NCBI GenBank assembly: GCA_036939755.1
Contig: JALLAZ010000836.1
Span: 1 to 11,747 of the forward strand
Origin: Stephanodiscus triporus
Taxonomy: Eukaryota > Bacillariophyta > Thalassiosirophyceae > Thalassiosirales > Thalassiosiraceae
Length of the DNA stretch: 11,747 bases
Direction: 5' to 3'
This document shows positions 762 to 11,646 of the stretch, in pieces (position 1 is the first letter of the stretch; each line of letters opens with the position of its first letter). The translations under genes were made by a program, and so were the position numbers. Below the pieces are notes generated by a model. It made no database searches, was not told the DNA's origin, and saw only the letters and a program-made list of their open reading frames with translations.

Positions 762-2270
762 ATGTCGGATCGGCAGCAGCATGACAGGTTTTCGGGTCGA
801 GTGATCTACGACGACCCGACCTCTCCCCCCGGCGAATCAGCGCACCGACGGCGGTTGGGAGACGACGACGACGACGACGACGCGCAGGTTCACGAGGAGC
901 TCCTGCGCGCATTCCGAAACGACGTCGACTACCTCGAATCCGACGCCCACGACGAGACGCGTAAATATCGCATACTCGCCGAGTGGAGCTGCGTCGTCGG
1001 ATACTGCGAGGCTCTATCCACCCACGCGGATGCGTCGCGTCGATACTCGATGTTTCCGGTGCCACTCGACTCGTTGCGACGTTTGGTCGAGGAGGAATTC
1101 GTGCCGTTGCTCCACGACGCGGCCCGATCGGACGCAGCCCCGAGGACGAGGGACGATGACGACGACGCGACGGCCGGAAGGGGTGAGAGCGTCCACAGGC
1201 GGACGGTCCGGGCCGTGTCAAACGCAATCTGGGGAAAGGCGCAAAACAAAAATTCCTCGACGCGGGATGAGCTCCATGCCAACAGCCTCTACAGCTGCCT
1301 TCGCGGGGAAATCGATGGCAAGAGCTTGGATTGCTTCGGGGCGGCGCTATTGGTCGTCATCGGGATGAACATGCTTGGCTTCCGAGGCAGCCGCTTGACG
1401 TTGAGTGAGGATCACGCGTACGAGAGCCACCTCGTCGAGGACGGCGACGGCGATGGTACGGACACGGACGAGGCGAATCATCGTCGACGATCGTCCGTTA
1501 AACGAGCCACCTGCGAGGTGGCCATCCCGGGGAACACGAAGGCCGCTCGGGCCAAGCGCGGGAGGGAAATTTCGCGCACGTTCGAGTCGAAATCCGGCGC
1601 CGTTACCGCGGAAACCTCGTGGTTGTACATGGCGAAGAATCCGGTATTGTGCAACACGCCCTGCATGGTTATGGCCGCGATGATTTCCAACCTGAATTGC
1701 GATATCGGCAAGAATAGACCCGGATCCGATGACGGCAGACCTCTAGTAGTCAGTCGACCGCTGTACAGATTGAAACGCGACATGCTGTGGATCCTTCACG
1801 AGTGCATGACCGCGTTTCCGTTTGCGTTAATGGAGCTGGGGGAATGCGAGGAGCACCTTAGCTCACAGAGAGGAATGGAATGGGTAGACGCATCAGAGTT
1901 GTTGCAATGTAAAGGGACTCTCATCCTCAGGAATGAGAAATTATTTTTGGATGCTATAAGCATTTCGAAGAGTCGGTATGGGGATGCTCAAGTTTACCCC
2001 TACTTATATTGCGGTCACTATCACCGCGACGCTGGACGGGATGGTCAAGAATATCGACTAGTCGAAGCATTGAGACTTTATTCCAATGCTACTCGAGTTG
2101 CTAGCTCCTACCGATACGATGCCAAAGATTGCTTGCAATTGATGAAGCACTTCACAACAGTGGCGTCGTTGATATTGAAAGATATTCTGCTTTCACCATG
2201 GGATTCTGGGGGGATTATGAACAAATCTAAGCCGTGGATAAAGGTTGATGGTACGATAGAGGGGGGATAA
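762..2270 (+). CDS. MEN1-like: Menin (MEN1) homologue, C-terminally truncated copy
   Basis: This intronless frame encodes 502 residues that follow menin almost from end to end. Recognisable blocks are the N-terminal helical segment (about 43-88), VSNAIW (152-157), the SLYSCLRGEIDGKSLD region (175-190), LTLSEDHAY (212-220, human LALSEDHAW), SWLYM (286-290), MLWILHE (341-347), YPYLYCGHYH (412-421) and YRY (450-452). Menin is a nuclear scaffold that in animals binds the MLL/KMT2 histone H3K4 methyltransferases, LEDGF and JunD. Insertions rich in Asp, Arg and Ser (34-40, 131-135, 224-245) fall between conserved blocks. After D496 the frame leaves the family and ends with six unrelated residues, so the C-terminal helical part and the tail are missing here; a matching 3' piece lies at 11009-11524. 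The ATG at 762 leaves a short unconserved leader before the menin homology. The family call rests on my own residue-level recognition. Confidence 0.85.
   Translation: MSDRQQHDRFSGRVIYDDPTSPPGESAHRRRLGDDDDDDDAQVHEELLRAFRNDVDYLESDAHDETRKYRILAEWSCVVGYCEALSTHADASRRYSMFPVPLDSLRRLVEEEFVPLLHDAARSDAAPRTRDDDDDATAGRGESVHRRTVRAVSNAIWGKAQNKNSSTRDELHANSLYSCLRGEIDGKSLDCFGAALLVVIGMNMLGFRGSRLTLSEDHAYESHLVEDGDGDGTDTDEANHRRRSSVKRATCEVAIPGNTKAARAKRGREISRTFESKSGAVTAETSWLYMAKNPVLCNTPCMVMAAMISNLNCDIGKNRPGSDDGRPLVVSRPLYRLKRDMLWILHECMTAFPFALMELGECEEHLSSQRGMEWVDASELLQCKGTLILRNEKLFLDAISISKSRYGDAQVYPYLYCGHYHRDAGRDGQEYRLVEALRLYSNATRVASSYRYDAKDCLQLMKHFTTVASLILKDILLSPWDSGGIMNKSKPWIKVDGTIEGG
867..887 (+). repeat. GAC trinucleotide run inside the menin-like gene
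   Basis: A short run of GAC/GACGAC repeats encodes an Asp tract at residues 34-40. A second acidic run (GATGACGACGAC, near 1155) encodes residues 131-135. These are length-variable loops in the predicted protein and not conserved menin blocks. Confidence 0.8.
2121..2249 (+). repeat. Segment duplicated at 11009-11137
   Basis: These 129 bases match 11009-11137 with eight substitutions and no gaps (about 94% identity). Similarity fades right after GGTTGAT in both copies. The segment encodes menin residues 454-496. In the downstream copy the frame continues into further menin sequence, whereas here it stops after six codons. Confidence 0.95.
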
Positions 2271-2875
2271 TAAGGACTTCCAGGAAGCCGGCTAAAAACT
2301 TTTTCTCAGTTGTTATCGGACCTGTCGCACCTATTATGGATAATTTCTGATTCGCGAGAGAAGCCAGTTTTTTTTGCTTTTTCTCAGAGCTTGTCCAAGT
2401 GCATGGAGAGAAAAGAAAAAAGATGAACATCGAACATCACACATATAATGACTGGCTTTTCTCGCAATTTTCTGTCTCTTTTCTGTCTTGCTTCTCGAAA
2501 AAATGTTCATTCACTAATGGCGCTTGGAGTGCGATCGAACTTTCCAAGGCACTTTCACAAATAAACAAATTAGTTTTTCCTTAGTATTTTACGAGTCATA
2601 ATGTCTACCATCAGAAAATTCTTTCTCTGGTCCTTTTCACCTGCGGCAAAGTTCGGCCGAGCCTTTTTCGCACTCCACAATGAGGATTGACAGCACGTCG
2701 GGTAGGTAGGTAATGTTTTATTTCCTTGGCCACCAGTGGTCGAATGGGACCGCCAATGGTATCATTAGAAGCGGATTTTTACCGCGCATCCAGCGATGCA
2801 ACATTCAACTGTGTCTCACGTGCTGTTTTTTCTGTGTGATAGCTAAAGAATAACAGGACATGCACATCTCCGCAT

Positions 2876-2909
2876 CGCCGCCGCCGCCACCTCCTCCTCC
2901 TCCTCCGCC
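2876..2909. repeat. CCG/CCT trinucleotide microsatellite
   Basis: A run of CCG units passes directly into CCT units. It translates to a poly-proline stretch in one frame and to a poly-arginine-like stretch on the opposite strand, which explains the open frames overlapping it. Confidence 0.85.
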
Positions 2910-3040
2910 ACTCTGGAGTCCTGCGTGTTTCCAAATAAGGGAGGATAGAAAGAGTCGGCATCACAGTTCAAGTTTGGTTGAATCCCCAGGGTACTATTCA
3001 ACATTTGATGGTGTCGTCCCTGGCGGCATTGTCCCCCTTC

Positions 3041-3068
3041 CTGCCAGTGGCGAGTGACCCACTGGCAG
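3041..3068. repeat. Perfect 10-bp stem-loop
   Basis: CTGCCAGTGG (3041-3050) is the exact reverse complement of CCACTGGCAG (3059-3068), with an 8-base loop. It sits between two copies of TGGYGGCATTG about 60 bases apart. Function is unknown; it may be part of a small mobile or structured element. Confidence 0.7.
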
Positions 3069-3295
3069 CAACGTCTTACCTGGTGGCATTGTTTGGTTAT
3101 TCATGTTCTTCTTGTAACAAATGCTCAGTTCTAAATGTATTTAATTTATGCATACACTCGTGGTAGATTTATCAGATTATGCCACAAATGTTATGAGTGC
3201 GGTAAAGCATCTCTCGGGCCCAACTGGCCTGGCGGGAAGCTGGCAATCTGATTCCTTCATTCTCCAAAGGCAAGCATCTTTTTGCATTGTGACAG

Positions 3296-3481
3296 CCAAG
3301 CACTAGCTCAAAAAACGCATGGCGACCGCCTCCATCCTGCTATCGTCGCGACATTCGCTTGCCGTTGTCGTCAGCGACTGAGGCCCTTGGCAAGAGGGCA
3401 CTGGTCGCATACCTTCAGTCTGAATTGGATACTATCGAACTCCTGCTCAAAGTCATGGATCGTTTCGAATTCAACGAATGA
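3296..3481 (+). other. Possible terminal exon or small-gene remnant
   Basis: A frame opens directly after a good acceptor-like sequence (TTTTTGCATTGTGACAG, AG at 3294-3295) and runs 61 codons to a TGA at 3479-3481. The second half reads like a charged amphipathic helix (ALGKRALVAYLQSELDTIEL onward). Alternatively, an ATG at 3319 in another frame gives MATASILLSSRHSLAVVVSD and stops at 3379, just where the helix-coding frame continues, so a frameshifted small gene is also possible. No upstream exon or family was identified. It converges on the HAD gene ending at 3511. Confidence 0.25.
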
Positions 3482-3510
3482 CGTTTGTTGGGCTATCTTG
3501 GAAAAAATAA

Positions 3511-4188
3511 TTAGATCTTGCGTTTCATCAAGTGAAACTCTCTAATTTGTGTCTCTATCAATCGTACCCCCAAGCACACCTCGGTCAGCGTCAGGCCCAC
3601 CGAACTTTCGGTCTTAACTGCATGTTTGATTGCTTCTGGCAAAACTCTACCCTCGACGTTCACCAAATCTTCGTCGTCGAGGGCTATCCACGATCGTACG
3701 ATGTATTCCTCCCTTGCGTTATTAGCCTTCGTCCATACCCAATTGAGAATTTCCTCGTGTCGCGTGGCGTGATAATTCGGATCCGTGACATCGAAGAACG
3801 AGTCCGAGTGCGACTTCCAAACTCGCAGCACGGTCGCGTCCTCCCTCCCCCTCGCGATCGCGTATGCGCGAAAGCTCGATAGTATGTCCTCGACGAATTC
3901 CGGACGCGCTCGCCACGTCGATGACAGGACGAGCTTCGCGCGGTACGACGACGACGACGACGATGCATCATCGTTCGTCGCCTCCTCTCCACTCGCGTTG
4001 AGACGGGTCAACAACGTCGTTAGCGCCTCCATGGTCCGATCGGGAAAGATACATCCTTCCGTGTGGCGCGTTAACTCGTTATGTTGCTGGCGGTCGCCAA
4101 TGCGGGCGCCGCCCCCGAACGGAAGGAGGACGCCGTCGATGTCAAGGAAGATGACGTCCACGAGCTTCGGCATCGCCGCATCGCGCAT
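3511..4188 (-). CDS. HAD-superfamily protein of the HAD_SAK type
   Basis: The 225-residue protein has the HAD phosphohydrolase signature: motif I FLDIDGVL (14-21, catalytic Asp16 and Asp18), motif II LVLSSTWR (86-93) and motif IV ALDDEDL (169-175). A conserved RHEEILNW segment (143-150) lies between them. The arrangement resembles the HAD-like domain named after Swiss Army Knife RNA-repair proteins, whose members are often uncharacterised; no kinase or ligase partner domain is present. A Ser run (76-81) comes from a trinucleotide repeat. Met6 (MPKLVDVIFLD) is an equally credible start. The C-terminal VGLTLTE (197-203) fits the family end. It is transcribed away from eIF3f across 131 bp. The substrate cannot be told from sequence. 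Confidence 0.8.
   Translation of the reverse strand: MRDAAMPKLVDVIFLDIDGVLLPFGGGARIGDRQQHNELTRHTEGCIFPDRTMEALTTLLTRLNASGEEATNDDASSSSSSYRAKLVLSSTWRARPEFVEDILSSFRAYAIARGREDATVLRVWKSHSDSFFDVTDPNYHATRHEEILNWVWTKANNAREEYIVRSWIALDDEDLVNVEGRVLPEAIKHAVKTESSVGLTLTEVCLGVRLIETQIREFHLMKRKI
3946..3965 (-). repeat. GAC/GTC trinucleotide run in the HAD gene
   Basis: Repeated GAC on the plus strand encodes the poly-Ser stretch (residues about 76-81) of the minus-strand HAD protein. It lies in a loop between the N-terminal motif I region and motif II and is probably not structural. Confidence 0.8.
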
Positions 4189-4319
4189 GGCCTATCGCGT
4201 CATGTGTTACAAGTAGTTACAACAACACTCTTCTCCTAACAGACGGTCTGTCATTCCATTCACCCGGTCTGTCATTCACCCGTAAACCGGAAACAACCAC
4301 ACACACCAAACAAAACACC
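4189..4319. promoter_or_regulatory. Divergent promoter region with a 21-bp tandem motif
   Basis: Only 131 bp separate the start codons of the HAD gene (-) and eIF3f (+), so both promoters must lie here or within the leaders. The sequence CGGTCTGTCATTC occurs twice, at 4244-4256 and 4265-4277, with a 21-bp period, and each copy is followed by a C-rich or pyrimidine-rich tail. The first copy overlaps the near-palindrome AGACGGTCT. These are candidate transcription-factor sites. An A/C-rich leader (ACAACCACACACACCAAAC) runs up to the eIF3f ATG. No TATA box was seen. Confidence 0.5.
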
Positions 4320-5595
4320 ATGGCGGCAGCGCTCGCCCACGACAATCTCCCCCCCGCCACCTACGGGTGCTCCCCCGCCCTCCTCCTCAACTCCCCCGCC
4401 GTCACCCGGTCGGTCGCCGCCGTCGCCGCGAGCGCCGTGGCGGGCGCAGGCAGCGACGGCGGGGGAGCAGGGGGCGAGACCATGCCGGTATCGACCGTGT
4501 TCGTGCATCCCATCGTGCTCCTGAGCGTGCTAGACCATCACACGCGAAGGCAGGAGGGGGCCGGGCGCGTCATCGGGACGCTTCTCGGGAAGAGGGATGG
4601 CGATCGGGTGAGAGGAGAAAGAGTCGAGGATTTGCTCGTAATTCATTTGTTCGTCGTGGTGTCGGAGATTACGTGATCGCAGCACATCGGATGAGTCCGG
4701 GGAGAATCGCTTCAAAACCGGCCGAGTTTGCCCTGAATGCGCACGTCGTTAGTTCCGAAGGAGACAAAGATCAAACGTCGAGTCTGCCAGATGTCATTAT
4801 TCTTTCTCATCCTACATCTCTTCGCTTCCCCATTCGCGAATATTATTTCCCCCACATCGCAAAAAAAAGGTCGAGATCACCAACGCCTTCGCCGTCCCTC
4901 ACGCCGAGCGTGGCGACGAGGTCGCCATCGGGAAGGACTTCAACCGCCAGATGCTCGCCCTCCACCTTCGTGCGAATCCGCGAGAGACCGTCGTGGGATG
5001 GTACGCCACCGCCATGCCCGTCGACGACGGAGAGAGCAAGTGCATCGTCGACACGAGCTCTCTCATTCACGAATTCTACGCGGGAGAGTGCGACGACGAT
5101 CCCATCCACCTGGTGGTGGACACCGGCCTGCGCACGGACGCCGTGCCCCTGCGCGCGTACAAGTCCATCCCCGTTTGCGTGAAGGGCGAGCCGCTGGCGA
5201 ACATGTTCCACGAGATACGATTGTCGTTGAGGTCGTCCGACAGCGAGCGCATATGCGTCGATCGGATGATTGGTTCGGCCTCCGACCCGGACGGGGCGCC
5301 GGCCTCGAGGGACGAGGGCGCGGCACTCCAGCTTTCCATGGAGAGGCTGCTCTCCATGCTCGAGACTTGCTCCGAGTACGTTGACGGGGTGGTCGAAGGA
5401 TCGATAACGCCCGATGACGAAGTGGGACGAGACATATCGGAAACTCTCAGCTCGGTGCCGCGCATCCGACCAGAGGTGTTTGATAAGATGTTCAATGACA
5501 GCCTGCAGGACCTGTTGATGGTAACGTATTTGTCCAATATTACGAAGACTCAGCTTATGATTGCCGAGAAGCTGAACGAAACGTTGGGGAAGTAG
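4320..5595 (+). CDS. EIF3F: Eukaryotic translation initiation factor 3 subunit F (eIF3f), one intron
   Basis: Exon 1 (4320-4607) and exon 2 (4870-5595) join in phase 0 to give 337 residues, close to animal (357) and plant (293) eIF3f. After an Ala/Gly-rich N-terminus (1-55), the MPN domain (about 57-190) shows VFVHPIVLLSVLDHHTRR (60-77), GRVIGTLLG (82-90), ITNAFAVPH (99-107) and VVGWYATA (137-144). It has no HxH...D zinc motif, as expected for this inactive MPN subunit. The C-terminal helices carry VGRDISETL (281-289) and the signature DLLMVTYLSN (310-319). eIF3f is a core subunit of the cytosolic eIF3 complex that recruits mRNA to the 40S ribosome. The ATG at 4320 follows an A/C-rich leader. 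The gene shares its upstream region with the divergent HAD gene. Confidence 0.95.
4608..4869 (+). other. Intron of eIF3f
   Basis: The donor GTGAGA (4608) and the acceptor AG (4868-4869) restore the MPN domain exactly between residues ...KRDGDR and VEITNAF. The intron is 262 nt long. The acceptor is preceded by eight A residues, with the pyrimidine-rich tract (TTATTTCCCCC) lying further upstream, which is an unusual arrangement. Several in-frame stops prevent read-through. Confidence 0.9.
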
Positions 5596-5935
5596 GGAAG
5601 TGCCGTTGTCATTGTTTCGGTTTGGTCTTTGGGATGACGCTTCCCCCCTAAAATAATAATACGATTAAGAGAGAGGGAGAGAAAGAGAGAGAGTGAGAGA
5701 GAGAGGAAGAGAGAGAGCCAATGCTACCATTTCCAAATTAAATAACACAGACAGACAGAAAAGGGAAAACAAGTTCATTTGCCCTTGACTGTCATTGTGC
5801 TAAACACTGTGTGATTCAAGGCATAGTTATTTTACATTGGGGTGAGATACCAATATGACCTCTAAAAGAAAAATCAATGAATTGATGAATTCTGCACAGT
5901 GTTGAGGAAAATGGGCAACTCGTCATATTTTTATC
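5596..5935. other. eIF3f 3' flank: GA-rich tract and fold-back DNA
   Basis: No coding frame was found. The eIF3f 3' UTR presumably lies here. A purine tract of GA repeats occupies 5667-5717. Between 5800 and 5906 there is an imperfect fold-back (AAACACTGTG near 5803 against CACAGTGTTG near 5895). An element around 5831-5868 reappears inverted at 5994-6030, inside the transposon. Confidence 0.6.
5667..5717. repeat. GA-rich purine microsatellite
   Basis: About 50 bases consist almost entirely of GA dinucleotides with a few G, A or T interruptions. It lies 70 bases after the eIF3f stop codon, in the probable 3' UTR. Confidence 0.9.
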
Positions 5936-6030
5936 ACGTTATAAATTTAAAACAGCCGAATTTGGTTATAAATTAAGACAGCTATAAAAATATTTTTAGA
6001 GGTCATTTGTAAAATCACGGTATCTTCGTC
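5855..6030. repeat. Inverted repeat spanning the left edge of the MULE
   Basis: ATGACCTCTAAAA (5855-5867) is the exact reverse complement of TTTTAGAGGTCAT (5994-6006). Beyond it, GATACC (5846-5851) matches GGTATC (6019-6024) after an 11-base interruption. One arm lies outside the terminal inverted repeat and one inside, so the left boundary was rearranged or two elements are nested. Confidence 0.55.
5936..5990 (+). repeat. Left terminal inverted repeat of the MULE
   Basis: It begins ACGTTATAAA and contains AACAGCCGAA and GGTTATAAATTA. It pairs with 8233-8287 in reverse complement at 47 of 55 positions without gaps. The outermost ten bases are perfectly conserved. Confidence 0.85.
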
Positions 6031-6195
6031 CCACGCTTTTTTCATTTGCTTGAATGTCATTGCCGCCCCACGACAGGAGGATACCATGCTGCCATAATTT
6101 TTGACCTCGACCTCGAGTGCCCCGCCTATGACAATGACGCCGCCGCCGCTGCCTCCGCCTGCCCCCTCTCCCTTCGCCTTTTTAATTGTTTTGTT

Positions 6196-7924
6196 ATGGA
6201 GATGGAGTCGCCTTCCGATCTCATCGCTGGGGTTATGGATATGCTTGACAACTCCCTCGCGGAGTTCCATCAACTTGATGCCCAGATCGATGTTGACTTC
6301 AATCGCGTCAATGCTGAGGTGTCCGTTCCTATGCCATCCCCCCCTCTCCCTCTCCCAGTCTTCGGCGAATTTGTGACAAATGAGGCGACTACGGGGTTGG
6401 TGAGCATACAGTCATACACATGTCAACTTGGCAACTCCCAACGACGTCGTCGACCTGGCGTCCTCCAACGATTCCGACGATGACAAGCCTCCCGCCAAGC
6501 CGCCCTCTTCAAAGAAGGCCCGCAGCTCGTTGTCCAAGCTTTTTCCCGAGCCGTCCCAAACCACCACTGCAAAACAAGAACAAGAATTCTCACGTGTATT
6601 ACTGCTCCCATCGTTGCGGGAGCGGTTGCAAGGCAAAGCTGCGCGTGCCACTCGAGGGCTACAGCCGCATGCCCAATCTTTACATGGCCCAAGTCGAGGG
6701 TCACCTCCGAGTCAGAGGGGCTGGGGAGCTACGAGTGGTCTGGCAAGGAAGGAAGTGACAAGTTGAGAATGTTCAACAAGTTGTGCAAGCCTTTCATGAC
6801 GTCACAGAGGACATGCGTCGGATGATGGGTCTATATGCTACACAGAATCTCACGCGGACTTCAAGCATGATCTTTGAGGAGTGCAGGAAAGGGAATTGAG
6901 GATGTGCAATTTCCTCATGATTGGACGGGACTACAGAATCATTGTTGTCTGGAGCTTGTGTGAAAGGCTCGCAAAGAAATGGGGCTTGGCAACACAATCG
7001 CTACCTTGGAGAATACCCCATCATATTCTTACATGACTGACAATAGGACTCGCCCTTTTCTCCATTTCAGTGGGAATTGGCTCCATCCCAGTCCCTCAAG
7101 GCCAGATGAGAGGATGTGTCTCATATGATAATCAGGAATCCCAAATTGATTCCGTTGATGAAGAATCCTGGTCAGTTTTCTGTTCTGTTTTCTGTCATTT
7201 ATTTTTTATGTGCTACTGCATGCCCATTTTCTGTTCTATTTTTGGTCATATTTTCTGTCCTTTTTTATGTGCTAATGCATGCCCGTTTTCTGTTCTATTT
7301 TTGGTTATATGTGTTTCTTAGGATTGGATTTGTTCGTGGATGCTACATATGATATACGACCACTCCACCAGTTCCTACATGCCCATTGTCTACATGCTGA
7401 TGTCCCACAAGACAGAAGCTCTCTATTAGCACACATTCAGTCAGTTGTGGTCCTGTCCAACTGGAAGATGGACGTGCGTACGTACTGTTCCAACTTCGAA
7501 GCCGCACTCATGAAGGAACTTGATATAGCCTTCAAGGCATATGGTGGAATCCATGTGGGTTGCTTCTTCCATCTCAAACAGTGTTGGTGGAATTTTCTCC
7601 TAAAGCAGTGTGAGTTGTCGAAGGATATCGCAAAAGAGGCCATGCTACCTGGGAATTGGGATCTTTTGTGTGTGATTCCTCGTAAAGAAGTGGGGACGCG
7701 GGCATGCAGTTCCTTCATAGTAAGAACCTGGAGAAAGGTAAGCAAAAATTGACGAAGAAAGAACATGATGGGTATGATCGCTTTTGGACGTACTTCATCA
7801 AACAGTGGCTTCCAATAGTTGACAAGTGGAATATTTGTGCAAAAGATGGCAGCTGTTATGACATGACATGGTCTATCGTACTAACAATGGTGTGGAGAGA
7901 TACAATTGTCGTGTAGGTGATTGA
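6196..7924 (+). pseudogene. MULE transposase with FLYWCH-like zinc finger, broken
   Basis: Coding sequence is recognisable in pieces that switch frames. An acidic N-terminus starts at ATG 6196 (MEMESPSDLIAG), and a Ser/Asp/Lys-rich linker covers about 6428-6580. The zinc-finger-like block YYCSHRCGSGCKAKLRV...EGH covers 6597-6704. Linker pieces follow at 6759-6896 and 6895-7070. The transposase core (7322-7735) has FVDATYD, NFEAAL and GCFFHLKQCWWN, then FWTYFIKQWLPIVDKWN (about 7780-7832) and RTNNGVERYN (7877-7906). These match the MULE superfamily order. In-frame TGA stops occur at 6756, near 6958 and near 7104, and at least three frameshifts are needed. The usual DFE motif reads NFE. The protein would cut and paste the element using the terminal repeats, but it cannot be made intact. 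Confidence 0.8.
7171..7321 (+). other. Probable intron of the MULE transposase, made of a T-rich tandem repeat
   Basis: Splicing from 7170 (donor GTCAGT) to 7322 (acceptor TGTTTCTTAG) joins RNPKLIPLMKNP to GLDLFVDATYD in frame, as expected around the first catalytic Asp. The interior is an imperfect tandem repeat: units 7174-7225, 7226-7284 and 7285-7320, with a period of about 52-59 bases and the shared core TTTTCTGTTCT and GCATGCCC. Open frames across it code for artificial Phe/Cys/Leu-rich peptides. Confidence 0.55.
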
Positions 7925-8121
7925 GAAAGAAAATCTGATAACAGGCTCAATTATTGAGCGATATCAGGACGGGACAGGTCGCAGAACCAAGTCGCAACTT
8001 TGTGCAAACCATCCCCGCTATCCCTGATGAGTACGTTACATTTATTTAGATAAATACTTTATTTTAGACTATTTGTTATTATTTTGCATATGCGGCTGCA
8101 CACGATGCCGACGCAGGCGCG

Positions 8122-8155
8122 CTGTGTGAGTTGCTGCTGGCGGCAACTCACACAG
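8122..8155. repeat. Perfect 13-bp hairpin near the right end of the MULE
   Basis: CTGTGTGAGTTGC (8122-8134) and GCAACTCACACAG (8143-8155) are exact reverse complements around an 8-base loop. It lies about 80 bases inside the right terminal repeat. It could be a subterminal binding site, a transcription end signal of the element or an insertion footprint; the sequence does not decide. Confidence 0.8.
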
Positions 8156-8232
8156 TGATGCCAATGCTGCGTAACGCCATGGAAACCATTAACGGACCAC
8201 ACGGTCATGCATGGTAATGGCTGTCATGAGTT

Positions 8233-8287
8233 TTTTTACGGCTGTCATAATTTATAACCATTTTCGGCTGTTATATGTTTATAACGT
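8233..8287 (-). repeat. Right terminal inverted repeat of the MULE
   Basis: Read on the minus strand it begins ACGTTATAAACATATAACAG and matches the left repeat at 47 of 55 positions. The motif GGCTGTCAT recurs at 8219-8227 and 8240-8248, and a related GGCTGTTAT at 8266-8274, giving a subterminal array typical of transposase binding regions. Confidence 0.85.
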
Positions 8288-8430
8288 TATTTTTCCAGAA
8301 CGGAAATTCCGAATATCAGTGTTGAATCTGGCGGTAACAATGCTAATTCTCTCTTCTTGTGACGTTGATGGATCACCAGCATCAATTGTGAATAACCGTA
8401 CAACTCCCTAGTTTCCTCAGCGCTATATAT
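8288..8430. other. Short spacer between MULE and kinase gene
   Basis: These 143 bases separate the right terminal repeat from the kinase stop codon. They probably hold part of the kinase 3' UTR. The near-palindrome CGGAAATTCCG lies at about 8301-8311; no other feature was seen. Confidence 0.5.
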
Positions 8431-10665
8431 TTAGCCGGTAGACCTCCTGCCCATCAAGCTCCAGCGTAAGTTGCGATCATTCTGTATGGAGGGTTCCTTT
8501 GCAAGCGCCAAAAGGCCTTGTCTCACCAGCCACATATCCGGCCTATCACAGGCAGAGTTTGACCAACATTTGGTCATGGTGTCCCTCAAGTCTTTTGACC
8601 AGTGTTTACTCAATTTTGGCCGAACTCCCTTCCCAAAGACAACCTTGTGGAATTCAGCCGGCGTTTTGACAGTAATAAATGGCTTCTTGAGCGCACAAAT
8701 TTCCCAAAGAAGGATCCCGAAGGAATAAATATCAGAAGGGAGGCTGTAACCCAGATCCAATCCAACCTCTGGCGCCATGTACCGGAGGGTGCCACATCGG
8801 TCGTAGAGTAGCCCCGGCTCCCGGGTGCCACATGAAGTTCCGCTGCACAACGATTGGCTCTTCGTAGGATAGTCCAGAGACGTCGCAAATCCTAAGTCAA
8901 ATAGTTTTAACACACCGGTCGAGTCAAAGCCAACATTATCAGGCTTGAGGTCGCGAAATATGATATTCTTCGAGTGAAGGTAGGCAATCGCATCGGCGAT
9001 GAAGCATGCCGTGTTGATTTGAGCCAGCGAGGGAGATTTATTGTTCTGCTTCTGCCAACGAAGGATGCGATCCGTTAGGGTATCTTGCAACCTATCTAGT
9101 AGAATGAAGTAGCCATCGCCCAGACGGGTGGACCTGGAGTAAAACCCCCCTGCCCTACCATGAATCGTTATAATATTAGGATGGTTGAGGGAGGCGAGCA
9201 TAGTCGTTTCACGGACCAAATCCTCGACGCCGATCATGAATTGTTCGGCATCGGATCGAATTTGCGGACGTAGACACTTCATGGCAAGCACCACTTTACG
9301 TTCCTGCTGCTTTTGTGATGAATGACGGCGAGTGATTTCTCCCAAGCACACTGACCCTGTCATACCGCGGTCACCACGCTGCCTTCCACTGCCCATGCTC
9401 AGTCTTTGGGGTCGAAATTCTTGCATTTCCGCCGCGGCCTTTCCTTGATTTGGCTGCTCAGAGGCCTCACTCTCTCGTCCATTGTTTATTATCAGACTTT
9501 GGGGTAGAGATTCTGTCGATTTTGCCTCGGCCTGTCCTTGATTTGGCGGGTCAAAGTCGACTTCGCGAATCTTATCAAGATCGCCGAGTAGATAAGGGGA
9601 ACGGGACTCCTTGTCGAGGTCATCCACTTTTCTCCCCATGAGCTCGTCGGAGCCGCCTCCATCTTGGGGAAATTTTGCCGCGATGAGCTTATCAAGCTCC
9701 TCTCTGTCCGATCCCCATGACTCGAACGTAGGCATCGCCTCCACTGCAACCGTTGCGAAGACCTCAAACACATCCGAAAATGTCCCCTTGCCAAGGAACT
9801 TCCCCATGACAAGATCATTCTTGTTGAACTGCTGAATGCCCTCCCACTTTTTTCGATCCGACACGGAAACCTCGGTCGAGAGAAATTCTTCGACACGGAG
9901 GGCGGCAACAGTGTCAAGCTCACGTGCCGTGGGTGCATCACCAAGGCTTTCGAGCAAGGTCATTGAATCCGTAGATACTCCGCCGAGAAATTCTGCGTCA
10001 AGCGCGTTGCCTTCCATGTCCAGATCCCCTTCGCTAATACTCGAACACGACTTCAATGAATACCTTTGACTTGTTGGACCAATCATGTTGTCAACATGAA
10101 GCATGTCCTGAGGCATCACGGTGACGTCATCTGTTCCCAAAGTCGTTATTCCATCCGCGTCGGATTGAAGCATCCTATGGAGGGAGTTAACGGAGAGCAT
10201 TCTATTCCCGCTGTTGGTCTCGATAATTTTCGTCAGCGCCGCGTTATGATAGGAATTAATTGGAAGATCTTTCTTCTGCCTAGATGTTATATCCTTGTCA
10301 ACTTGCTGTAAATGATGACTAGAATGGTTGGTGAAGGTGAAGCTTGTACTGGCGCCCCTCTTACTCGTGAAACTGCCCATCAAAGTTGATGATTTTTCGA
10401 ATATCCGCTGCGATCTGCTCTTCCGACTTTTTGACACTTGTTCCATTGGCAAATGTTCGTGCTCGGTGGCATGCCGTGTCGAATCCGTCGTCGAACTGAT
10501 AGAAGACGAACTCCCCGCGGAACTGTGGAGCTCCATGGGAGTTAGGGCTGGGGGCATTTTTGTCACTTCGTGAACAGCATTGATGGAGTCAATCGGCGCA
10601 TTCGACGAGCGGTCAGAATAGCCGTTCTTCCAGGGGCTGTGAACCTTGTTGTCAGACTCTTCCAT
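8431..10665 (-). CDS. Protein kinase, TKL-like, with long N-terminal extension and split N-lobe
   Basis: The 744-residue protein has a Ser-rich, probably disordered region (1-265) and a kinase domain (about 283-725). Visible motifs are the Gly-rich loop GKGTFSDV (292-299), the ATP-binding Lys463 in LAMKCL, the helix-C Glu486, the catalytic loop FRDLKPDN (570-577, Phe replacing His of HRD), DLG (590-592, Leu replacing Phe of DFG), YMAPEV (629-634) and SDIYSFGILLWE (644-655). An insertion of about 155 residues (301-455) separates the Gly loop from Lys463 and contains two copies of a 31-residue repeat starting PNQG. Catalytic Lys, Asp572, Asn577 and Asp590 are present, so it is likely active on Ser/Thr. 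It is transcribed toward the transposon and eIF3f. Substrate and pathway are unknown. Confidence 0.88.
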   Translation of the reverse strand: MEESDNKVHSPWKNGYSDRSSNAPIDSINAVHEVTKMPPALTPMELHSSAGSSSSISSTTDSTRHATEHEHLPMEQVSKSRKSRSQRIFEKSSTLMGSFTSKRGASTSFTFTNHSSHHLQQVDKDITSRQKKDLPINSYHNAALTKIIETNSGNRMLSVNSLHRMLQSDADGITTLGTDDVTVMPQDMLHVDNMIGPTSQRYSLKSCSSISEGDLDMEGNALDAEFLGGVSTDSMTLLESLGDAPTARELDTVAALRVEEFLSTEVSVSDRKKWEGIQQFNKNDLVMGKFLGKGTFSDVFEVFATVAVEAMPTFESWGSDREELDKLIAAKFPQDGGGSDELMGRKVDDLDKESRSPYLLGDLDKIREVDFDPPNQGQAEAKSTESLPQSLIINNGRESEASEQPNQGKAAAEMQEFRPQRLSMGSGRQRGDRGMTGSVCLGEITRRHSSQKQQERKVVLAMKCLRPQIRSDAEQFMIGVEDLVRETTMLASLNHPNIITIHGRAGGFYSRSTRLGDGYFILLDRLQDTLTDRILRWQKQNNKSPSLAQINTACFIADAIAYLHSKNIIFRDLKPDNVGFDSTGVLKLFDLGFATSLDYPTKSQSLCSGTSCGTREPGLLYDRCGTLRYMAPEVGLDLGYSLPSDIYSFGILLWEICALKKPFITVKTPAEFHKVVFGKGVRPKLSKHWSKDLRDTMTKCWSNSACDRPDMWLVRQGLLALAKEPSIQNDRNLRWSLMGRRSTG
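9390..9553 (-). repeat. 93-bp tandem duplication inside the kinase gene
   Basis: About 9390-9460 and 9482-9553 are diverged copies with a 93-bp period; both contain CTTTGGGG and TCCTTGATTTGGC. They encode residues 374-400 and 405-431, each beginning PNQG and containing PQ(S/R)L. The length is a multiple of three, so the frame is kept. The repeat lies wholly within the N-lobe insertion. Confidence 0.75.
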
Positions 10666-11007
10666 GATGAACTGAATTTGATGGTCGAATGGCTGCCGGC
10701 TGCGCTGTGGGGCGGGGAATACCTATACTCCTTTTGGTTGAAGTCAATCCTTCGTTCCCTTTTGTCTTGTCCATCGGTTTTGTTTGCATGCATGGTCTTG
10801 CTTGCGTGATAAATAAGTTTTTGGAAGAATGTCACATGGTCACAAAACAAGTCTTTGCCTTAAAGAGAAGAGGAAATTGTATTAGAACCCATTTTTAAGG
10901 GCCTGTCCACAGGCATCGTTTTTTTCGTACCTCATACACCCCGCTGGGGTATGAAATTGCGTACATAGGACGTATCGTACAGTATTTCTGGCCATCAAAA
11001 AAATCAT
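10666..11007. other. Kinase upstream region
   Basis: No supported gene was found. It should hold the kinase promoter and leader (minus strand). A small hairpin GCCTGTCCACAGGC (10901-10914) is followed by a run of T, and a second imperfect hairpin around CACCCCGCTGGGGT lies near 10935-10952. Sequence continuity ends at the N at 11008. Confidence 0.5.
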
Positions 11008-11008
11008 N
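11008..11008. other. Unresolved base / probable scaffold join
   Basis: The only N in the window lies exactly one base before sequence that duplicates 2121-2249. The left side (AAAAAAATCAT) shows no menin homology. This suggests that two contigs were joined here, possibly with the true gap length unknown. Confidence 0.75.
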
Positions 11009-11524
11009 GCCAAAGATTGCTTGCAATTGATGAAGCACTTCACAACAGTGGCGTCGTTGATATCGAAAGATATTCTGCTTTCACCACGGAATTCTGGGGG
11101 GATTGTGAACGATGCTAGGCCGTGGATAAAGGTTGATAATGCCATCGCTGCTGCAACGTGGCTACTCGGATTTTTTGATTCCCTCTTGTTGTGGGAGGAG
11201 CGCGAGCAGAACACGTTTGTTGAGATACTTGACGTTCGGCACAAGCACTCGTTGGGCAAGTTGATTCAACACTTTTCTGTTGATATTCGGCTAGCGGCTA
11301 TTGCAAAGATTCAGTCTCAAGAGGAGCTTGGCAACAATTCGTTAGCTGTTACAGAAGATCGCTTGATGCACTTTAGAAATCCTCGCTCGAATCGATTTGC
11401 CAAGGACAGTCTCCTTGTTGGGGCTTTGTCTAAAGGAAAGGTGGTCGTTCGTGAGTTGGAAATGGCGTTGCCGTCTAGTAGCGAAGGGAGAAGCTGCAGG
11501 GAACGAAAAAAAGCGCGCTCGTAG
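11009..11524 (+). CDS. MEN1-like: Menin homologue, C-terminal part (5' truncated at the N)
   Basis: The 171-codon frame is open from the first base after the N. Its first 43 codons repeat the end of the menin-like frame at 762-2270; it then continues with menin C-terminal sequence: WLLGFFDSLLLWEE (51-64, like human LLRFYDGICKWEE), SLGKLIQHFSVDIR (81-94, like SLGRFEGQVRQKVR) and LLVGALSKGKVVVRELEMAL (135-154, like the conserved LLVATKINSSAIKLQL end). A basic tail (161-170, RSCRERKKAR) could serve as a nuclear localisation signal, as in animal menin. With residues 1-453 of the other frame this would total about 624 residues, against roughly 610 for human menin. No start codon belongs to this piece; its 5' part is missing, either beyond an assembly gap or by real truncation. 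Confidence 0.8.
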   Translation, partial: AKDCLQLMKHFTTVASLISKDILLSPRNSGGIVNDARPWIKVDNAIAAATWLLGFFDSLLLWEEREQNTFVEILDVRHKHSLGKLIQHFSVDIRLAAIAKIQSQEELGNNSLAVTEDRLMHFRNPRSNRFAKDSLLVGALSKGKVVVRELEMALPSSSEGRSCRERKKARS

Positions 11525-11646
11525 TGAAAACCGTGTGAGTCCACCGCTCAACAACCTTCGAAACAACTGGTAGATTCACAATTCTCTAGTAGAAACCGGT
11601 CATCAACATGTAGAAACATGGATTCGATTGAATCATCTATTTCTTG
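11525..11646. other. Spacer between convergent genes
   Basis: These 122 bases lie between the menin C-terminal stop and the stop of a minus-strand frame. It is probably shared 3' UTR. Nothing else was recognised. Confidence 0.4.

Follow-up and report, generated by a model that had tools for sequence, protein, structure and literature searches.

A split menin gene in the diatom Stephanodiscus triporus: a predicted menin fold without the acidic residues that grip MLL in animals

Introduction

The menins of family PF05053, among them human MEN1 and the Nematostella menin of PDB entry 3re2, are compared here with a gene on the forward strand of an 11,747-base contig (JALLAZ010000836.1, analysed in its entirety and called the window below) from the diatom Stephanodiscus triporus. 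According to the accessible part of PMC8022399, Phe9 of the MLL peptide rests on menin Leu177, Ala182 and Met228, Arg12 is gripped by Glu359, Glu363 and Tyr319, and Pro13 lies between Tyr319 and Tyr323; Phe9, Pro10 and Pro13 are described as hot spots, with Arg8 and Arg12 making charged contacts (PMC11490872, in the portion available). The papain-like superfamily, as set out in the available text of PMC10318531, has its Cys at the N-terminus of the core helix and its His where the following strand begins, and the full triad is retained by some menins.

The diatom copy shares with PF05053 menins the profile match, the full-length fold, the LSEDHA floor of the MLL pocket, the Tyr319 and Tyr323 positions and the SWLY block. 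It differs from them in overall sequence (24-29% identity across the aligned fold), in the loss of the acidic wall that faces MLL, in the replacement of Asn282 by Glu, of Trp341 by Tyr or Phe and of Tyr276 by Phe, in an insert of 4 residues just ahead of LDCFG, and in a long loop after LSEDHAY. We think it probable that the window holds a Stephanodiscus-type diatom menin, presumably nuclear, that was split by a scaffold join or a partial duplication, and that this protein, an orthologue-like menin with the predicted thumb-palm-fingers fold, would act as a scaffold docking a peptide other than the animal MLL motif.

A menin with diatom relatives

An open reading frame at 759-2270, with its ATG at 762, encodes a protein of 502 amino acids. 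The menin blocks that a first-pass annotation had read in it (VSNAIW, LTLSEDHAY, SWLYM, YPYLYCGHYH and YRY) all occur there in the order it gave, and the LLVGALSKGK block that it placed downstream lies in the frame 10955-11524. Pfam finds one family in the 502-residue protein, Menin (PF05053), at 96 bits (cut-off 23.6; E 2.4e-27; residues 144-474). The best match among solved structures is Nematostella menin 3re2 (E 1.1e-19), followed by human menin chains (E 4e-12 to 1e-11), and a profile built from 60 diatom-type sequences matches 3re2 at E 5.5e-46 and the human chains at E 2.5e-36 to 8.2e-35. The predicted structure has the thumb-palm-fingers architecture over its full length, as judged by a VIA-align second look at Foldseek matches. 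Blocks and profile matches are far beyond chance; sequence profile and predicted fold both bear out the annotated homology, and it is near certain that the gene is a menin by descent and fold. It is the sole PF05053 match across the host genome, a draft of 21.65 Mb in 1324 contigs whose completeness is not stated and which is probably partial.

The named best relatives are diatoms (Stephanodiscus, Discostella, Thalassiosira, Skeletonema, Cyclotella, Nitzschia, Cylindrotheca and Seminavis, with Epithemia and Amphora added by a further search). The nearest protein, P0001 of S. triporus itself (627 residues), is 97-99% identical, which supports the diatom source suggested from the sequence and rules out animal contamination. 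Four listed diatom copies (P0001, P0077, P0079 and P0101) already bear the UniRef name 'Menin'; at NCBI one relative is named Menin domain family protein and another multiple endocrine neoplasia I, and several JGI proteins are named menin. Diatom menin homologues are hence already catalogued in databases and are not new. Those of S. triporus, Nitzschia inconspicua, Cylindrotheca closterium and Seminavis robusta belong to the same family as the window protein, whose gene, unlike theirs, is split in two pieces. A literature search for menin in diatoms (judged by titles and abstract openings, with subscription papers mostly outside its coverage) found no paper, and a search on diatom H3K4 or COMPASS found nothing on diatom menin. 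What is new here is the clade-wide loss of the acidic wall, which we did not meet in the literature searched, unlike the published retention of the triad in some menins.

The MLL-binding cavity

Cavity positions were compared in an alignment of 120 diatom-type rows (the best 120 of 169) and 120 animal-type rows (the best 120 of 603), to which 24 new diatom-type rows were then added. Human residue numbers were anchored on motifs of a human chain, and rows gapped at a position were left unscored there. The animal-type sample consists of proteins of about 184-586 amino acids, owing to the length rule of the search, and nameless rows take their diatom-type label from the search, joined by the tree for 102 of 144. 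The features concerned are:

2136-2159, forward strand: segment in which Gln459, His463 and Thr466 align with human Glu359, Glu363 and Glu366; acidic wall lost
1401-1421, forward strand: LSEDHAY, floor of the MLL pocket by alignment, containing His218 (codon 1413-1415)
1833-1835, forward strand: Glu358 (Glu361 in P0001), aligned with human Asn282; all 143 filled diatom-type rows have Glu here

Of the 144 diatom-type rows, 24 could not be scored at the positions of Glu359, Glu363 and Glu366; in all of the other 120, none of the three is acidic, and in 119 of 119 filled animal-type rows all three are. Glu359 and Glu363, which hold Arg12 in the MLL-binding menins of animals, are replaced in the window protein by Gln and His. 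The Asn282 position is acidic in 0 of 120 animal-type rows. Tyr or Phe stands at the Trp341 position in 124 of 127 filled diatom-type rows, and Phe at the Tyr276 position in 141 of 144.

The hydrophobic sites for MLL Phe9 and Pro13 are kept: the positions of Leu177, Ala182, Met228, Tyr319 and Tyr323 are L, A, V, Y and Y in P0001, and Val at the Met228 position is also the commonest residue in animal-type rows (90/120). All 143 filled diatom-type rows keep Leu177, His181 and Glu195, and Tyr occupies the Tyr319 position in 139 of 140 and the Tyr323 position in 110 of 140. In the LSEDHA motif (window 1401-1418), 119 of 120 diatom-type rows agree at each of L, S, E, D and H, and 116 at A; the animal-type figures, again out of 120, are 113 for L, 120 each for S, E, D and H, and 105 for A. 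The strict conservation of LSEDH, a stretch that includes the His of the enzyme-like site described below, cannot count as evidence of MLL binding. Judged from the aligned residues, the features of an animal-type MLL scaffold are half present, with the hydrophobic sites kept and the charged grip gone in every scorable diatom-type row, and we suggest that animal-style MLL docking should not be assumed for diatom menin. The uniformity of the pattern may reflect one old change and not many, since the diatom-type rows are related sequences.

These data bear on the proposal in the first-pass annotation that a protist menin would inform the age of menin-MLL/COMPASS scaffolding. An animal-like scaffold would bind, as animal menin does, an MBM1-type motif with which a trithorax-like enzyme begins at its N-terminus, and the shared fold, the largely conserved hydrophobic floor and tyrosine positions, and one Dpy-30 domain in the same genome are consistent with it. 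The proposal is weakened by the absence of the Arg12-binding acidic residues from every scorable row and by the replacement of Trp341. The FYRN, N-SET and FYRC domains were also undetected in the host draft genome, a weak negative (six frames, exon by exon, with no control genome over the cut-off and the menin-binding motif of MLL itself not searched). We regard an animal-like MLL scaffold as very improbable.

The same genome contains 32 SET matches, 30 of them given as loci. An unusual one (L040 on contig C935, 1678-4935) is a single open frame of 1086 amino acids that joins a part resembling a Ulp1-type protease, so labelled by reading the sequence, to a C-terminal SET domain, and is perhaps transposon-linked.

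We favour a docking scaffold with another partner. In the predicted fold the thumb is a transglutaminase/papain-like domain, and the palm closes its cleft to form the central cavity; diatom menin most likely still docks a peptide there, though one unlike the animal MLL motif. For a hydrophobic anchor of this peptide, the LSEDHA floor and the space between the two tyrosines could still serve. By alignment, the acidic residues that hold MLL Arg12 are gone, and a Glu found in no animal-type row occupies the Asn282 position.

The Cys-His site

Two further positions, together with His218, define an enzyme-like site:

1332-1334, forward strand: codon of Cys191, at the nucleophile position of the papain/transglutaminase fold by alignment, first residue of the core helix (human Ser154)
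1515-1517, forward strand: Glu252 (Glu255 of P0001, human Glu195), candidate third residue of a Cys-His-Glu site, suggested by its conservation

All 143 filled diatom-type rows have both the Cys and the His of the papain/transglutaminase fold, and Glu255 (P0001 number) likewise occurs in 143 of 143; human menin has Ser at the Cys position. Core helix 191-204 starts at Cys191 and strand 219-224 follows directly after His218, the placing given for the superfamily in the available text of PMC10318531. When the thumb was modelled alone, 11 rows among the 50 matches listed were non-menin proteins, namely LapG, GdmF, Ceg10 and PNGase. Diatom menin thus has in common with papain-like/transglutaminase-fold cysteine enzymes (PNGase, the arylamine N-acetyltransferase-like GdmF and LapG) the topology of the thumb, a Cys at the helix start and a His before the strand, by a weak structural match; unlike in these enzymes, its site is embedded in a menin palm and fingers.

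This conservation and placing, the thumb matches, and the full triad reported for some menins (PMC10318531, in the same part) argue for the chief rival to our reading. Diatom menin would be a working cysteine enzyme of the protease, deamidase or transglutaminase type, acting through Cys191, His218 and probably Glu255 (P0001 numbers), and the animal scaffold would be a derived use of an old substrate cleft. We consider this unlikely, and less likely than a scaffold with another partner. To our knowledge, no catalytic activity has been described for diatom menin.

Among the animal rows listed (for example P0145, P0153, P0169, P0226 and P0229), vertebrates have Ser in place of the papain-type Cys, as do several crustaceans and a bug, and hagfish has Ala; cnidarians, ticks and the remaining named insects in these rows retain the Cys. 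From these residues, the Cys looks to have been lost several times within animals.

Several points weigh against a scaffold that docks a different peptide. The strict conservation of Cys and His is equally expected of an enzyme, and the pocket was mapped by sequence alignment only. No partner of diatom menin came to light, and none of the SET loci inspected by eye looked like SET1/MLL. This is a weak search, which covered wider stretches around 8 loci, one open frame in full and most of another, and local translations of 14, several of them plainly in a wrong frame or strand and uninformative. The sole sign of expression is that three listed relatives (P0003, P0076 and P0085) are MMETSP transcripts.

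A split gene

The window lacks one uninterrupted menin frame, and the gene is represented by these features:

762-2270, forward strand: menin N-terminal part, 502 codons and a stop; homologous to P0001 until about 2249, divergent beyond
2121-2249, forward strand: first copy of a 129-bp repeat; 8 mismatches, all within 2176-2230, altering 7 residues
11008, no strand: a single N, with no other in the window, directly before the start of the second repeat copy; probably a scaffold join
11009-11524, forward strand: menin C-terminal piece, 171 amino acids and TAG, opening with the second repeat copy; 99% identical to P0001 residues 457-627

The pieces 762-2249 and 11009-11521 (followed by TAG) overlap via the repeat, whose copies at 2121-2249 and 11009-11137 are 94% identical. 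For the interval 762-2270 as first annotated, the family identity therefore stands, but the final codons (2250-2270) are not menin. P0001 is 97% identical to the first piece (489/502) and 99% identical to the second (169/171); the corresponding values for the environmental protein P0002 are 89% and 94%. Since P0001 matches both pieces, an intact gene of the same layout exists in a near relative. The downstream piece by itself has no Pfam match and was recognised as menin through P0001. An intron spanning 2250-11137 is ruled out by the overlap of the pieces and by the unrelated genes on both strands between them.

A scaffold join is the likeliest cause of the split, and the second piece begins exactly past the only N. 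A real partial duplication is possible, since of the 7 residues altered by the 8 substitutions in the first repeat copy, 6 disagree with both P0001 and P0002 and 1 agrees with P0002. Tail duplications do occur in this genome, as a decayed copy of the menin tail on contig C1188 attests. The first menin copy might then be a truncated allele or pseudogene and not the product of an assembly join, but the remainder of this copy is 97% identical to the intact gene and has no internal stops, and we hold this explanation to be possible but doubtful. The C1188 tail copy (7431-7624) is frame-broken; over 239 bp its identity to window 11313-11548 is 80%.

Neighbouring genes

The window also holds eukaryotic neighbours: an eIF3f exon (4876-5592), a HAD-domain gene and a protein kinase. 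To judge from the frames, the eIF3f gene apparently has an intron at 4608-4875 that separates this exon from a first one whose ATG lies near 4321. The HAD-domain gene, at 3514-4188 on the reverse strand, matches HAD_SAK_2 at 66.8 bits; this domain takes its name from RNA repair proteins. Two inverted repeats, each about 55 bp long (5936-5990 and 8233-8287, 85% identical), flank a stretch with a short transposase-like frame (7276-7752, 'HVGCFFHLKQCWW') that has no Pfam match and that we take to be MULE-like; the interval 5933-8290 is probably a decayed DNA transposon.

Origin and significance

In a tree, 102 diatom-type rows fall on one side of the branch from 18 animal rows; it was a quick build, with long-branch warnings for P0052 and P0239, and its rooting on animals was our choice. 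Relatives came from searches of which the best 120 rows of 169, 603 and 131 matches were kept (about 8000 candidates were scored in the first and third). Among these, every readable organism name is that of a diatom or an animal, and many rows are nameless. As these searches brought up no third group of eukaryotes, the data do not distinguish ancient descent from transfer. As to other sources, a profile scan of viral contigs for a giant-virus origin gave 28 pattern matches, and a scan of prokaryotic genome contigs with P0001 alone gave 585; neither yielded a relative at its sensitivity, which is not to say that none exists.

A broader scenario, which we offer as speculative and rather improbable, is that menin began as a transglutaminase/papain-fold cysteine enzyme. 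Diatoms would still use Cys191, His218 and Glu255, and animals would have made the cleft an MLL dock by means of the acidic wall, after which several lineages, including vertebrates, would have lost the Cys.

Menin, a tumour suppressor of obscure origin, is a drug target in leukaemia. Diatom menins share its fold, strictly keep an enzyme-like site and differ uniformly in the wall that contacts MLL. They offer a natural comparison by which the demands of the fold can be told from those of MLL binding, and they open the question whether menin descends from an active enzyme to direct tests in an alga that can be cultured.
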